A stretch of DNA of 64,000 nt, from contig NZ_QZVT01000001.1 in assembly GCF_003602275.1 (NCBI RefSeq), positions 588,567 to 652,566 on the forward strand, written 5' to 3'. A program made the position numbers and the translations under genes. Of the stretch, positions 11,988 through 35,169 are shown in pieces (the first letter of the stretch is position 1; each line of letters starts with the position of its first letter). The notes below the pieces were generated by a model that worked only from the letters and a program-made list of their open reading frames with translations, was not told where the DNA came from and ran no database searches. This DNA comes from Arthrobacter cheniae. GTDB lineage: Bacteria > Actinomycetota > Actinomycetes > Actinomycetales > Micrococcaceae.

Positions 11988-12051
11988 GACTGGCGGGCGG
12001 GTATCACCTGCGCGTGGCACCATGGAAGCCGAGGCGGGGGCGACCCGCTTC

Positions 12052-12093
12052 CCGGACGATGGGTGCCGTACCCGGTGTGCGACAAGACGGCCC
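12052..12093 (+). promoter_or_regulatory. guanidine-III (ykkC-III) riboswitch
   Basis: The segment begins CCGGACGA, continues GTGCCGTACCCGG and ends GACAAGACGGC. These are the conserved blocks of the compact guanidine-III pseudoknot aptamer, in the correct order and spacing. It ends one base before GTGGGAG, the ribosome site of the exporter gene starting at 12107, so guanidine binding would control translation. The position in front of an SMR guanidinium exporter is the known arrangement for this class. Confidence 0.88.
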
Positions 12094-12106
12094 GTGGGAG
12101 TGCATC

Positions 12107-19926: not shown

Positions 19927-20687
19927 TCCTTCTGCCCGGGACTCTCCCGCACCACGCGTGGCTTCCCGAACTGGGTCTGCACCCCGGGTGAGAACAGGAC
20001 CGACGACGGCGGACCCTCGACGCGGATGCCGGCAGCACCCAGCAGGCCGTCGTCGAAGTCGGTCAGGGTAGCGGGGTGGAGCGGCCAGGGCGTGTGGGTG
20101 TTGGGGATGTACAGGGTGCGGCCCGCCAGCGTGCTGTGCAGTCCGAAGCGCGCGGTGAGTTCCAGCGACACCGTATCGTCCGCCGTCCGCGCCGTATCCG
20201 GCCGGACCACGAAACGGGACGTCGCCTGTCGCCTGAATCGCACGACGTCGTACCCGTACTCCCGCCGATCGCCGCCGCCGCGTGTCACCGGTGAGCACCG
20301 CGACCACACGTAGGGGATTCCCCCCGTGCGCGCGGCGAGCACCACGGCCAGACGGGAGGCGTCGAGCGTCACGAAGACCACGCCGCGCGTACCATCGGGA
20401 CCGCGCGAGTAGAGCCGCACGTTGATCTCGGTGAAGGAGCCGAAGTAGGGAACCGGCAGGCCCTGCCCGAGGCCGGCACCGAGCATGCGGAAACCGATCA
20501 GGCCCACCCACGACGAGCCGTCGACCTCGTCGGGCACGACGCCGGGCGGCATGAAGCGCGCCACCGCTTCCGCCTCGACGCGCCAGTGCAGGAACACGGC
20601 ATCCGCCCAGAACTGGTCCATGATGACGGGCCTGGGCAGCTCGGGCGCGAGGTGCCAGGTGTCGTCGTGCTGGTGATCGTCGGTCAT
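19923..20687 (-). CDS. YqjF/DUF2071 family protein
   Basis: The protein has 254 residues. I chose the ATG at 20687 because it overlaps the stop of the upstream GH26 gene as ATGA; a longer open frame upstream lies inside that gene and is not coding. The family layout is present: LHWRVEAEAVARFMPPGVVPDEVDGSSWVGLIGFRM, then FTEINVRLYSR and GVVFVTLDASRLAVVLAAR. Homologues fold like acetoacetate decarboxylase but their activity is unknown. Coupling to a cell-surface glycoside hydrolase is curious and may be incidental. Confidence 0.85.
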   Translation of the reverse strand: MTDDHQHDDTWHLAPELPRPVIMDQFWADAVFLHWRVEAEAVARFMPPGVVPDEVDGSSWVGLIGFRMLGAGLGQGLPVPYFGSFTEINVRLYSRGPDGTRGVVFVTLDASRLAVVLAARTGGIPYVWSRCSPVTRGGGDRREYGYDVVRFRRQATSRFVVRPDTARTADDTVSLELTARFGLHSTLAGRTLYIPNTHTPWPLHPATLTDFDDGLLGAAGIRVEGPPSSVLFSPGVQTQFGKPRVVRESPGQKD

Positions 20688-21844
20688 GAGAGCTGCTCCC
20701 CGCAGTCGTCGGGTTCCTCGGCGAAGCGGTACCAGTCGGGCAGCGCGGCCGTGAATTCGGAGCGGACGGCCGGATCCTCTGCCACGGTCCAGTCCACGGC
20801 GGCGCCCACCTCGGGTTCCACCTTGTTCCACTCGAACCAGTTGACCATCTTCAGCTGCGGGAACCGCTCGTGCACGGCCGGGTCGAAGACCTGCTCCCAC
20901 CACGCACGCTTGATGTTGAGCGTCCGCAGGGTACCGATATCGTCCGTGACGAGGGCCGCGGTCTCGGGAATCGCCAGAGGCTTGCCGTGACCCACGCCGT
21001 AGTCGGCATAGAAGTCCGGCAGCATGGAGTCGTCACCGTTCTCTCCGTCATAGGTGCCCGTGAGCTGGTTGGCGAACTTGCCCTCCTCTGGCATCTCGCT
21101 CTCCCCCCAGGGGTAGGTGCTGCCCCAGTGGTACAGCGACATCCCCACCCAGTCGACGGCGTCGTCGCCCGGGTAGTAGGGACCGTAGGGATCGTCGAAG
21201 CTTGTGAGGACGCCGTCACCGGTGGTGTCGAGGTCGGCGAAACCGGCCGACCCCGGCAGGGCTTCATGAACGCCGCCCGAGAAGGGGTATCCCCCCGCGT
21301 AGTTCGGCGCCCACATCATCGCCGAGCCCGGAGCGGCCCGATGGACAGCATCGGCCATGCGGCGGAATGCCTGGATGTACTCGCCCGGCTGCTGACCCCA
21401 GGGATACCAGGATCCGTTCATCTCGTGGGCGAAACGCACGATGACCGGGACGCCGTTGGTGTTGAAGCGCGCGAGCATCGCTGCCAGCTCGTCGACCCGG
21501 TCATCCGTGACCATCGCCAGCCCCTCGTGCGGTTCGAGCGTCAGGAGGAGCGTCCCGCCTTCCTGGCGCACCTGTTCGGCCGCCGCCGTGACGAGCCCGG
21601 GATCCTCCGCCGAGAAGGGGAAGTCGGCGAAGGACACCGCCAGCGCCGGGCGCCCACCCAGCTTGTCGGCGTACTCGGCCAGCGTCTCCTTGCCCCACTC
21701 GATGTTCACGCCCATCAGGGTGCCGTCCTCCGGCGCGAGGTGCCGCCCGTCGATGGCATCGCAGGATGCAGCAGGATTGATGTTGCAGGCGCAGAGCGTC
21801 AGGAGGAGCAGCGCCGTGAGTGCGCGTGCAAGTTGAGAGACCAC
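20684..21844 (-). CDS. GH26-like glycoside hydrolase lipoprotein
   Basis: The 386-residue protein has a lipoprotein signal whose lipobox LCAC is near residue 19. The TIM-barrel enzyme has VRFAHEMNGSWYPWG, with the general acid Glu after FAH, and AIPETAALV, with the likely nucleophile Glu. These are hallmarks of family 26 beta-mannanase or beta-glucanase-like enzymes. It should be anchored on the outer membrane surface and act on a beta-glycan. TAGATT (21851-21856, minus strand) lies six bases before the GTG start, so it is probably leaderless. A second GH26 enzyme lies at 33052. Confidence 0.85.
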   Translation of the reverse strand: MVSQLARALTALLLLTLCACNINPAASCDAIDGRHLAPEDGTLMGVNIEWGKETLAEYADKLGGRPALAVSFADFPFSAEDPGLVTAAAEQVRQEGGTLLLTLEPHEGLAMVTDDRVDELAAMLARFNTNGVPVIVRFAHEMNGSWYPWGQQPGEYIQAFRRMADAVHRAAPGSAMMWAPNYAGGYPFSGGVHEALPGSAGFADLDTTGDGVLTSFDDPYGPYYPGDDAVDWVGMSLYHWGSTYPWGESEMPEEGKFANQLTGTYDGENGDDSMLPDFYADYGVGHGKPLAIPETAALVTDDIGTLRTLNIKRAWWEQVFDPAVHERFPQLKMVNWFEWNKVEPEVGAAVDWTVAEDPAVRSEFTAALPDWYRFAEEPDDCGEQLS

Positions 21845-32024: not shown

Positions 32025-32696
32025 CTACAGTGCCACCAGTGCGTCGATGACGTCGCAGGTCTCCGTCCGCGTGGTGTAGTCCACCCTCGCGTCGATCAAG
32101 CGGATCGTTCCGGTCGCATCAGCGACGATCACCGTGGGAAAGGGGATGGCAGCGGTCTGATCCATGTTCGATCCGGCGACGTCGATGCCGAGGGCGGCCC
32201 GAGCCCGAACCGACTCGGCGCTCGGTGTCGCCACGATACCCAGACGCGTGGCCAGGGCATTTCCCTCGTCGGAGTACAACGCGAAATGCAGGCCCAGCTC
32301 CTTCGCCGCTTCCCTGGCGATATCGGGGCTCTGGGGACTGATCGCGATCAGCCTGGTTCCGAAGGCTTCGACCACGGGCCGCAATTCCCGCTGGTAGGTC
32401 TGCAACGTGATGCTGCAGTAGGGGCACCACGAACCACGGTAGAAGACGATGATCGCGGCGGCGCCTCCGAGAATGTCCGCCAGGCGTTCCCTGCGTCCAT
32501 CGGTGTCGTACAGGTCGGCGTCAGGAAGCCTGTCACCGACGCGGGCAACTCCGCTCGGAAGCCCGACGCGTCGAAGATCCGCCTGCTCCCTGGCGAAGAC
32601 CGCCGCGAGTTCAGGGCCTACCCGCGCTTCGAAGTTCGATGTGAATCCATCGAACTGCGTCGCTATGGTGTTCGTGAACATTGGTTCTTGCTTCAT
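32025..32696 (-). CDS. AhpC/TSA-like peroxiredoxin
   Basis: The protein has 223 residues. The redox motif WCPYC lies in VFYRGSWCPYCSITLQTYQR, near residue 91, and a conserved AISPQSPDIAREAAKELGL follows. An N-terminal extension of about 50 residues with helices precedes the thioredoxin fold, as in the peroxiredoxin-like family. It should reduce hydroperoxides with thiols. GAGGGGA precedes the ATG. Overlapping palindromes lie 46-68 bases upstream of the start. Confidence 0.88.
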   Translation of the reverse strand: MKQEPMFTNTIATQFDGFTSNFEARVGPELAAVFAREQADLRRVGLPSGVARVGDRLPDADLYDTDGRRERLADILGGAAAIIVFYRGSWCPYCSITLQTYQRELRPVVEAFGTRLIAISPQSPDIAREAAKELGLHFALYSDEGNALATRLGIVATPSAESVRARAALGIDVAGSNMDQTAAIPFPTVIVADATGTIRLIDARVDYTTRTETCDVIDALVAL

Positions 32697-32741
32697 TCGT
32701 TCCCCTCAGCACACTTGGCGCGGGAGCCTCTGTCGGCAATA

Positions 32742-32764
32742 GGACCATTGTGGTCCAGACCACA
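32742..32764. promoter_or_regulatory. overlapping palindromes ahead of the peroxiredoxin gene
   Basis: GGACCA-ttg-TGGTCC (32742-32756) and TGTGGTC-ca-GACCACA (32749-32764) overlap. The TGTGGTC half-site recurs in the two operators between the FCD regulator and the lactate enzyme at 63011-63052. Confidence 0.55.
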
Positions 32765-32954
32765 CCAAATTCCCAGCGACACGAGCATCCGTCTCTGCCC
32801 GGATTCGGGGCCCGTCCGCGCTCGCTGGGAGTCCTGCGGAAGACCTGCACCAATACTTGGTCAGCCTTCGGTGCAACCCGGCCTCCGCGAAGTGGAGCGC
32901 GCAGGACAATGGACAGTGGCTTCCCCTTCGGGGAAACCGACAGCGCTCGGGTAA

Positions 32955-33036
32955 CCGCTCAGCGACAAAGGCAAACCCGGTGCGAGCCGGCGACGCAAAG
33001 CCACGGGACCCGTCGGGTCAGCCGGGCTACCGAACC
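32955..33036 (+). promoter_or_regulatory. c-di-GMP-I (GEMM) riboswitch
   Basis: Conserved blocks occur in order: AAAGGCAAACC (32967-32977), then a short P2 hairpin, GACGCAAAGCC (32992-33002), a P3 arm ACGGGACCCGT, and CCGGGCTACCG (33022-33032). The base matching the ligand-contacting G20 is G (32970), which favours c-di-GMP over cGAMP, and the stacking A47 equivalent is 32997. The aptamer ends about 15 bases before the start codon of a secreted glycoside hydrolase, so control of translation or early termination is possible. Confidence 0.88.
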
Positions 33037-33051
33037 AGCTAGGTGCCGCTC

Positions 33052-34293
33052 ATGCTTCACGTTCCCTCCGTCCCCGTCCCGGTCGGTGCCGTCCGTGGCA
33101 CCGCTGCCCGGCTCCTCCTGCTCCTCACCGCCATCGCGGTGCTGACGATCGGCCTGACGCCTGCTCCCGCACAGGCAGCAGCCGGCATCACGCTGAGCAG
33201 CGCCTCGGGGGTGGCCGGCACCACGGTCACCGTGACCGGAGCCGGCTTTCCCAAGCGGACGAAGGGGACCGTGGTAGCAGGCTCTAACCGGGTAGCAGTG
33301 ACGACCACGTCGACGGGCGCCTTCCAGGCGTCGATCATTCCCACGGGTTCCGGGACCGTGACCGTGACGGCAACGGTCGGCAGCTCCGTCGCGAGTGCAA
33401 GCTTCACCGTCGTGGCACCGGCTCCCGTTCCCGCCGCTCCGAAGGCCATCCGATTCGGAATCGGCACCAATGGTGGTCCGGCGGCCGGCCTCGAGCTCGA
33501 CGAGGTGTCCACGCTGGCCGGCGAGGCACCATCCATCGTCCTCTCCTACAAGGATTTCAACCAGCCGGTCCCCATCGCAGAGCTGGATGCGGTCCGCGCG
33601 CGGGGTGCAGAGACGCTGCTGACCTGGGAGCCCTGGACGTGGGGTGGCGGAACCGAGCAACCCGCGTTCTCGCTTGACCGCATCGCTGCAGGTGACTTCG
33701 ACGCCTATCTCCGCGAGTGGGGTACCGCCCTCGGGCAGTGGGGCCAGCCGGTGTACCTGCGGTTCGCGCACGAGATGAACGGCAACTGGTACCCGTGGGC
33801 GGAGGGCGTCAACGGCAACGACACCGGTGATTACATCGCCGCCTACCGCCATGTCCACGATGTCGTCCAATCGACCGGCGCCACGAACATCAGCTGGATC
33901 TGGAACCCGAACGTGCCCTACTGGGGCTCCACCCCCCTGGCCCAGCTCTACCCGGGCGAAGGCTACGTCGACAGCGTTGCGCTCGACGGCTACAACTGGG
34001 GCACCTCGCAGTCCTGGAGCACGTGGCAGGAGCCTCAGGCCCTGTTCGGGGAAGGGATCGCCCAGCTTCGGCAGCTCGCACCCGGCAAACCGATCGTCAT
34101 CGCGGAGACGGCGTCCTCGGAGCTGGGCGGGTCCAAGGCGCAATGGATCACCACCCTCTTCAGCTACGTCTCGGCCCAGCCGGATGTGGTGGCACTGGTC
34201 TGGTTCCACATCGACAAGGAAGCCGACTGGCGTATCAACAGCACGACGGCGTCGGCGGAGGCGTTCGCGGCAGGATTGGCCGCGCGCCGCTGA
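33052..34293 (+). CDS. secreted GH26-like glycoside hydrolase with N-terminal Ig-like domain
   Basis: The protein has 413 residues from the ATG at 33052, with AGGTG seven bases upstream; a GTG at 33043 is less likely. A signal peptide ends near AQA (residue 42). Residues 45-125 form an Ig/IPT-like beta domain rich in Thr and Val (ITLSSASGVAGTTVTVTGAG). The TIM barrel follows, with YLRFAHEMNGNWYPWAEG (acid Glu) and IVIAETASSELGG (nucleophile Glu). The GEMM riboswitch in front ties its expression to c-di-GMP, which suggests a role in matrix or biofilm polysaccharide turnover. A related lipoprotein is at 20684. Confidence 0.9.
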   Translation: MLHVPSVPVPVGAVRGTAARLLLLLTAIAVLTIGLTPAPAQAAAGITLSSASGVAGTTVTVTGAGFPKRTKGTVVAGSNRVAVTTTSTGAFQASIIPTGSGTVTVTATVGSSVASASFTVVAPAPVPAAPKAIRFGIGTNGGPAAGLELDEVSTLAGEAPSIVLSYKDFNQPVPIAELDAVRARGAETLLTWEPWTWGGGTEQPAFSLDRIAAGDFDAYLREWGTALGQWGQPVYLRFAHEMNGNWYPWAEGVNGNDTGDYIAAYRHVHDVVQSTGATNISWIWNPNVPYWGSTPLAQLYPGEGYVDSVALDGYNWGTSQSWSTWQEPQALFGEGIAQLRQLAPGKPIVIAETASSELGGSKAQWITTLFSYVSAQPDVVALVWFHIDKEADWRINSTTASAEAFAAGLAARR

Positions 34294-34362
34294 TACACCC
34301 TGCCTGCGTGGGGACAGGACAGGGAATCATAGGGCCGGGGCTTCGGTGCGCCGAGGGCTGCG

Positions 34363-35169
34363 TCAACCAGCGGGCAGGAACGGCTGGCACCGGGGGCACC
34401 ACCAGGTCCGGCGACGGCCCGGGTCGCCGGGCACCTCGGCCCTGACCCGCACGCTCGTCCCGCATCGCAGGCAGGGTTTCCCGGCCCGGCCCGCCACCCA
34501 GTGCTGTTCACCCTTGCGCGTGTTGCCGGTCGTGACCTGGTGAGCCCCGGGCTGCGTGGCGGAAAAGCGCAGGCACCGCGCGCCGAGCGCCACGAGCGCC
34601 GCCACGTCGACCTCGCCCAGTTCCGTGTCCGGGTGGATACCGCGCAGGAAACAGAGTTCGTTGGCCCAGAGGTTACCGAAGCCGGCGACGTTGCGCTGAT
34701 CGAGCAGGGCGGCCGCCACGCGTTCGCCTGGCTCTCGCTGCAGCCGTCGCACCGCCTCGTCCGCGGACCAGTCGGATCGGAGTGGATCGGGTCCGAGGTG
34801 CCCGACGACGTCGTGCTCCGCGCGCGTGGGCAGCAGATCCACCACCGGGAGGTCGAGCCCGTAGGCCGTGGGCCCACTCCGGACCCCGAGGATCACCCGG
34901 GCGTCCGGCAGCAGTGCCCGGGGAAGCTTCCGGCCAGGCGCCGTCACGGTCCACGACCCCTGCATCCGCAGGTGGGTGTGGAGGGTCAGTCCGCCGTTGA
35001 ACCGGGTCAGCAGGTGCTTGCCGTGGGTCACATGCTCCACCACCTGCATACCGTCGAGGACATCGGTGGCATGGGCCGGGACCCGAAGGTCTCCGCGCTC
35101 GAGCGTGCGGCCATCGAGCGACCTCCTCAACCGCGCCGCGAGGCGGAAGACGCTGTCGCCTTCGGGCAT
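34363..35169 (-). CDS. Fpg/Nei family DNA glycosylase (endonuclease VIII-like)
   Basis: The protein has 268 residues. The start MPEGDSVFRLAARL at 35169, with GGGAGG upstream, exposes the catalytic N-terminal Pro2 and Glu3. The helix-two-turn-helix has NVAGFGNLWANELCFLRGI. The zinc finger CLRCG with 20 residues to WWCPRCQ ends the protein. It removes oxidised bases and nicks the DNA backbone. The MPEGD start and the Leu-rich first helix fit actinobacterial Nei2 rather than Fpg (MutM). An open frame extending further upstream is not used. Confidence 0.92.
   Translation of the reverse strand: MPEGDSVFRLAARLRRSLDGRTLERGDLRVPAHATDVLDGMQVVEHVTHGKHLLTRFNGGLTLHTHLRMQGSWTVTAPGRKLPRALLPDARVILGVRSGPTAYGLDLPVVDLLPTRAEHDVVGHLGPDPLRSDWSADEAVRRLQREPGERVAAALLDQRNVAGFGNLWANELCFLRGIHPDTELGEVDVAALVALGARCLRFSATQPGAHQVTTGNTRKGEQHWVAGRAGKPCLRCGTSVRVRAEVPGDPGRRRTWWCPRCQPFLPAG

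Follow-up and report, generated by a model that had tools for sequence, protein, structure and literature searches.

In the 64,000-nucleotide stretch of Arthrobacter cheniae DNA that was analyzed (the window), a c-di-GMP-I riboswitch is predicted to control the translation of an exported GH26 enzyme, the latter being a putative beta-glucanase. The explanation that best accommodates the data is that of a c-di-GMP switch that acts on translation and keeps a glucanase directed against the cell's own glucan OFF in sessile cells, to which we assign a probability of roughly 0.6. The substrate would be the beta-glucan made by a cellulose-synthase-like enzyme. While the cells are sessile, the c-di-GMP-bound aptamer would fold against the landing site of the 30S subunit, and less glucanase would be produced. 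When c-di-GMP falls, the glucanase would be made and the matrix trimmed or the cells released. Transcription would be activated separately through 11-bp repeats. The relevant features are as follows.

32833 to 32865, plus strand: three tandem 11-bp repeats, CCTGCGGAAGA CCTGCACCAAT ACTTGGTCAGC, a possible activator site (period-11 score)
32905 to 32910, plus strand: candidate -10 element, GACAAT (inspection of upstream regions)
32918 to 32938, plus strand: 5' leader hairpin upstream of the aptamer (RNA fold of the leader)
32944 to 32964, plus strand: hairpin P0 abutting the aptamer, with its core at 32949 to 32960 and the loop AACC (covariation over 39 sequences, RNAalifold and leader fold)
32960 to 33034, plus strand: c-di-GMP-I riboswitch aptamer with a short P3 lacking a tetraloop receptor (cmscan, RF01051 and RF03167)
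33041 to 33045, plus strand: Shine-Dalgarno sequence AGGTG (sequence; a similar sequence lies at the same place in most leaders of the genus)
33052 to 34293, plus strand: exported GH26 enzyme of 413 residues, with a signal peptide, an N-terminal part and a GH26 domain (Pfam PF02156 and a match to PDB 2bv9)
20684 to 21844, minus strand: second GH26-family protein, 386 residues, outside the regulon (Pfam PF02156, E 2e-10)

The aptamer is a member of an already known family. A cmscan search of the 64-kb window matched it to the Rfam family c-di-GMP-I, RF01051, with 63.2 bits (gathering score 35) and an E-value of 5.3e-10, and the segment is almost certainly a riboswitch of this class. An earlier note, made from the sequence alone, had placed the leader in the GEMM (c-di-GMP-I) class and had asked for a covariance-model search, and the cmscan result bears the assignment out; the three motifs that it listed, GGCAAACC, GACGCAAAGCC and CCGGGCTACCG, are all found in that order. 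The bases corresponding to the ligand contacts are G 32970, A 32997 and C 33030, as in c-di-GMP binders, and are presumed to be equivalent to positions 20, 47 and 92 of Vc2 from the published numbering of Vc2 and the alignment to the Rfam model. The G at position 20, from which c-di-GMP rather than cGAMP had been expected, is thus present. In an alignment of 39 of the 48 leaders of the genus, the columns for G20 and C92 are invariant, that for A47 contains A in 38 leaders and G in one (L127), and most of the remaining core columns show little or no variation. The residues G20, A47 and C92 of Vc2 are named as c-di-GMP contacts in PMC4744006.

The window aptamer resembles RF01051 in sequence, in P2 and P3, in the G20, A47 and C92 contacts, and in its place before an exported surface-related gene. 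It differs in that P1 is limited to two modeled pairs, P3 is short and receptor-less, P0 is conserved, and the Shine-Dalgarno sequence lies ∼10 bases or less from the aptamer. The P2 loop is GCGA, and the receptor columns in P3 are deleted. The docking of a GNRA tetraloop into its receptor is not taken as required for membership in RF01051, given that the model accepts the window sequence despite these deletions.

On the basis of its contact bases, the ligand is very probably c-di-GMP. A shift to cGAMP or to another dinucleotide, which would place the aptamer near the Rfam variant c-di-GMP-I-GGC (RF03167), is quite improbable. The likeness to that variant consists of a short P3 loop without a receptor and a score at threshold, namely 58.6 bits against a gathering score of 59, and a second copy of the aptamer in the A. 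cheniae genome passes with 64.6 bits. The RF03167 consensus, however, shows GACGCGAA, and we read the "GGC" of its name as the three contact bases, whereas position 47 is A, not G, in the window copy and in 38 of the 39 aligned sequences. Likewise, the A20 of cGAMP riboswitches is absent. Even less probable is that the aptamer is decayed or decorative and devoid of regulatory effect. Decay does happen, but the window copy is intact and its core is conserved across the aligned leaders. The decayed case is the copy upstream of GH26 in A. agilis DSM 20550 (L006:3874-3970), which scores 42.2 bits in a model built for the genus and in which, on inspection, A47 and P1 are gone. The 11-bp repeats have been kept there, and the locus thus constitutes a natural experiment.

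The gene behind the riboswitch encodes, as the earlier note had proposed, an exported GH26-like glycoside hydrolase. The signal peptide was read from the sequence, and the catalytic domain matches Pfam Glyco_hydro_26 (PF02156) with an E-value of 3.5e-10 and 40.2 bits against a cut-off of 20.2. The Ig-like domain also claimed for it is plausible only, the sole match in that region being a sub-threshold one, of 19 bits where the cut-off is 86, to the NCBIfam model of an enediyne-antibiotic chromoprotein. Both catalytic glutamates are present (codons 33772-33774 and 34105-34107) and align with those of PDB 2bv9. Membership in GH26 usually suggests a mannanase. In a phmmer search, however, the best solved relatives are entries named "Endoglucanase H," with E-values from 8.5e-52 (PDB 2bv9) to 8.8e-50, and the next GH26 structure (6.4e-11) and the mannanases (1.8e-10 and worse) lie far behind. 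This ranking makes it highly likely that the enzyme is a beta-glucanase. Endoglucanase H, a clostridial protein, is taken by us to be the GH26 lichenase CtLic26A. The window enzyme shares its catalytic domain and differs from it in its N-terminal part and in its predicted control by a riboswitch. The nearest named relatives of the window enzyme are found in Arthrobacter agilis and its kin, with identities of up to 81%.

The second GH26 protein of the window had been described as lacking a riboswitch and as having a leaderless promoter. Indeed, no Rfam match at gathering score was observed there, and by inspection a TAGATT motif six bases before the GTG start fits a leaderless promoter. The contrast that the earlier note drew between the two enzymes is nevertheless weak. 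The two share 27% identity, and the second has a closer counterpart, at 38%, in the GH26-like domain of a fusion with OpgC whose gene follows one for a cellulose-synthase-like protein. In this fusion of a GH26-like domain with an OpgC acyltransferase (L232:10620-13226, plus strand), the nucleophile position is, by eye, apparently a glutamine rather than a glutamate, and for that reason the domain may serve in binding and not in cleavage. Apart from the c-di-GMP-I aptamer, the window contains one Rfam match that reaches its gathering score, a guanidine-III riboswitch (12029-12096, plus strand, 60.9 bits). It lies directly before ATG 12108, the product of which resembles, by eye, an exporter of the small multidrug-resistance type, with which this riboswitch is usually paired.

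Control by the window riboswitch is probably translational, since a scan of 32600-34500 turned up no terminator-like site. The Shine-Dalgarno sequence begins six bases past the end of the aptamer. The enzyme had been said to start about 15 bases beyond the aptamer; the distance is 17 bases to ATG 33052 and eight to GTG 33043, which also opens the frame. The ATG is the likelier start because an ATG occurs 11-20 bases past the 76-base aptamer stretch in all 48 loci of the genus. The distance from aptamer to start codon is 14-21 nt for the 18 GH26 genes under such a switch, 15-18 nt for six GH16-like genes, and 18 nt for a GH5 gene. Free folding of 47 of the 48 leaders (L090, without GG in its Shine-Dalgarno region, was dropped) revealed no shared pairing that hides the Shine-Dalgarno sequence, and RNAalifold predicted no anti-Shine-Dalgarno helix over 39 leaders. 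These negative results weigh against the proposed explanation. A pseudoknot between the P0 loop and the Shine-Dalgarno sequence was considered and rejected, the mean complementary run being 2.83 as compared to 2.98 for shuffled partners, with 499 of 500 shuffles as high.

All five pairs of the P0 hairpin vary on both sides, with 82.6% of the cells paired over the 39 sequences; the structure had been drawn from the same sequences on which it was scored. For the structure as a whole, shuffles and slid partners score below the real alignment of the 39 leaders, and four of the P0 pairs were predicted unprompted by RNAalifold. In the window, two of the four core pairs are G-U, and the lower stem would pair with the 5' strand of P1. 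An extended P0 stem that excludes P1 appears in the window fold and, by inspection, in a few GH26 leaders of the A. agilis type, and is not general. The free fold of the window leader is not more stable than those of shuffled sequences (z 0.89). A covarying P0 beside a minimal P1 may represent a new expression platform. Further upstream, hairpins similar to that at 32918-32938 are seen by inspection in some other leaders of exported enzymes, and the GACAAT element recurs in several GH26 promoters; a consensus scan of the 32600-34500 region identified no sigma-70 site, and the start of transcription is placed, as a guess, near 32917.

The earlier note saw a single case; the window locus belongs to a set found across the genus, in which a DNA-binding response regulator also figures. 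The genus yields 48 matches to RF01051, distributed over 32 of the 38 genomes scanned. Downstream of these matches lie 18 GH26 genes, 22 genes for OmpR-type response regulators, six GH16-like genes, one GH5 gene and one masked gene. L108, with its coding part masked, enters neither the class counts nor those of co-occurrence, and its leader was kept in the alignments. The response-regulator and GH5 assignments are backed by Pfam, and the GH5 protein is closest to endocellulase E1 (E 7e-118). The label "GH16-like" is based on the motif E-x-D-L-C-E, which is invariant in the set and which we take to be the GH16 signature. A single sequence showed a weak match to a 1,3-1,4-beta-glucanase (E 8e-4), a profile of the six members retrieved no PDB chain at E 0.1, and the members matched no catalytic Pfam family. 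Three exported enzyme families with relatives of the beta-glucan type thereby appear to lie under one RNA switch.

With stricter filters than those of the genus scan, which lose weak matches, RF01051 was found in 23 of 295 genomes sampled from the family, four of the 23 being outside the genus, and in 43 of 394 sampled from the class. Among 31 of the family and class loci, a script located the aptamer in 24 and a downstream reading frame in 20, of which 13 are type IV pilin-like by inspection. In three loci from other actinomycetes (L238, L241 and L168), a c-di-GMP-I riboswitch precedes small exported proteins of the MRKSTKI...AGSAFTASN type. When the presence of the riboswitch is mapped onto a tree of 81 GH26 domains, four changes are required, counted as three because one is accounted for by L015, whose upstream DNA is masked; gains and losses are not told apart in this tree, and the decayed L006 was scored as riboswitch-bearing. 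One riboswitch-bearing GH26 (L076) sits on a long branch far from the others, which implies either recruitment more than once or frequent losses. A contig labeled as Vibrio cholerae strain 35D (L011) carries an Arthrobacter-type GH26 locus with its riboswitch, and this record is probably mislabeled or contaminated.

With respect to the substrate, the A. cheniae genome encodes a cellulose-synthase-like GT2 protein of 696 residues with a Pfam Cellulose_synt domain and the TED and QRLRW motifs. Its gene overlaps that of the GH26-like/OpgC fusion and is located on a different contig (C17) from the window (C33). No match to a PilZ domain was detected in the protein; the genome contains five GGDEF matches. 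Homologues of the synthase (E 1e-60 or better) occur in 25 of the 38 genomes of the genus. Among genomes in which the riboswitch controls an exported enzyme, 20 of 22 have such a homologue, versus four of the 15 without an enzyme so controlled, the latter comprising nine genomes with the regulator only and six without the riboswitch (G002, with a masked gene, was excluded). The corresponding Fisher p-value of 9e-5 is optimistic, given that the species are related and kinship was uncorrected. In six of the 25 synthase-bearing genomes, the synthase and a riboswitch-controlled enzyme lie less than 1 kb apart: a GH16-like gene is divergent from the synthase in three (G019, G007 and G018), a GH26 gene is convergent with it in two (G023 and G028), and in G016 a GH26 gene follows ∼960 bases behind on the same strand. 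The co-occurrence and these gene neighborhoods lead us to favor, with some reserve, the view that the enzyme acts on the beta-glucan of the cell's own matrix. Together with the relatives of beta-glucanase type, they lend indirect support to the matrix dispersal that the earlier note had raised as a possibility.

Arthrobacter live in soil and on leaves, and it is conceivable, albeit doubtful, that c-di-GMP instead reports attachment and that the glucanases are released against plant or fungal beta-glucan in foraging. Such a habitat would suit this role, and three enzyme families under one switch are what might be expected of a degradation regulon. The co-occurrence with the cellulose-synthase-like gene, and the nearness of an enzyme gene to it in six genomes, speak against it. 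For a substrate made by the cell itself there is a precedent in rhizobia, in which c-di-GMP activates a mixed-linkage glucan (PMC9495663). In the Gram-positive Romboutsia, the synthesis of such a glucan was found to be independent of c-di-GMP (PMC10374906). The two results make the substrate idea testable, and that from Romboutsia warns against assuming it. The system predicted here would resemble that of the rhizobial BgsA glucan in that c-di-GMP governs an extracellular beta-glucan. It would differ in that rhizobial synthesis is activated through the synthase protein, as described in PMC9495663, whereas in A. cheniae the RNA would control a hydrolase gene and the glucan is predicted.

As for the sign of the window switch, OFF is marginally preferred because the logic is the same as that of the zmpI protease switch of Clostridioides difficile. 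With the opposite sign, which we regard as rather unlikely, c-di-GMP would turn translation ON, and the glucanase would be produced alongside the polymer to aid its trimming or secretion, a role played by the cellulase BcsZ in cellulose operons. The GH16-like genes that diverge from the synthase in three genomes are arranged as co-expressed pairs may be. In addition, the class I riboswitch Vc1, which precedes the gene for the exported GbpA of Vibrio cholerae, promotes expression with no apparent terminator or anti-Shine-Dalgarno sequence (PMC4744006), and the window leader is equally bare. Vc1 is similar to the window switch in its class and its exported, glycan-related product, but as described there it has a tetraloop receptor, a 225-nt leader and a chitin-binding product. 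The nearest logical parallel argues for OFF: the exported protease ZmpI (PPEP-1) is under repression by a class I switch, and the seven functional switches of that class in C. difficile are all OFF (PMC6366702). The zmpI switch, like that of the window, precedes an exported enzyme that releases surface material. It differs in that a protease acts on adhesins under transcription termination, whereas in the window a predicted glucanase is probably controlled at translation with a sign that is inferred.

The second riboswitch of the A. cheniae genome (C33:508034-508108) lies before a gene for an OmpR-type response regulator. Between them is a leader reading frame of 36 codons (L002:1595-1705, near 508130 on C33 of G000), the stop of which overlaps the regulator start by 8 nt; such leader frames start with M-x-R-T in most loci. 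An overlap of 4 or 8 nt is seen in 15 of the 22 regulator loci, two being without a leader frame and five unresolved by the script, and the regulator is thus likely to be translationally coupled to the leader frame. In the two loci without one (L087 and L107), the regulator by inspection seems to be without the phospho-acceptor aspartate. Three further relatives of the riboswitch-controlled regulator are present in the genome (E 1e-45 or better).

OmpR-type regulators often bind sites with 11-bp spacing. The best period-11 score exceeds the 95% point of shuffles in 18 of 18 GH26, five of six GH16-like and the one GH5 leader, and in none of the 22 response-regulator leaders. The promoters scored are those from which the repeat consensus had been derived by eye, so only contrasts between periods and classes are informative. 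In 22 of the 25 leaders of exported enzymes, the best repeat pair is situated 104-133 bases ahead of the aptamer; the distance is 67-73 bases in the other three, L085, L088 and L096. Genome-wide, the pattern CCTGCN6CCTGC has 48 matches against 41 for the reversed control, with no clear enrichment; a tighter pattern with two mismatches allowed has six against one, and the window site is among the six. For 63 GH26 loci without the riboswitch (L077 was too short), period 11 is barely above other periods (9.37 versus 8.70-9.26). A few of these loci score high nonetheless (L038, L052 and L031), which indicates that the repeats are independent of the riboswitch. Upstream of the synthase, period 11 is slightly above the others (9.96 versus 8.81-9.75) in 24 regions, of which three are shared with GH16-like genes and which do not include G017 and G020. 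Box-like repeats are also observed on the strand divergent from the synthase in L264, L268, L269 and L270 by script and in L271 by eye. No GH16-like match was found in ∼700 bases at these five loci, and the repeats are possibly relics of a lost divergent gene.

An obligatory pairing of enzyme and regulator, as proof of a feed-forward loop, was rejected: nine genomes carry the switch before an enzyme but not before a regulator, and nine show the reverse. Quite tentatively, the riboswitch regulon of the genus, with its three putative beta-glucanase families and its OmpR-type regulator, might form a two-step c-di-GMP gate for the turnover of the cell's own beta-glucan, in which the regulator may bind the 11-bp repeats.

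No c-di-GMP riboswitch regulon of exported glucanases was found in the open-access literature searched, which is not proof of its absence in print. The 48 aptamers from 38 genomes, preceding three enzyme families and one regulator, provide a compact set for the study of a minimal class I switch without a visible terminator. If the proposed reading is true, a Gram-positive genus of the soil would use RNA to tie c-di-GMP to the enzymatic turnover of its beta-glucan matrix, and no c-di-GMP-binding protein would be needed in that step.
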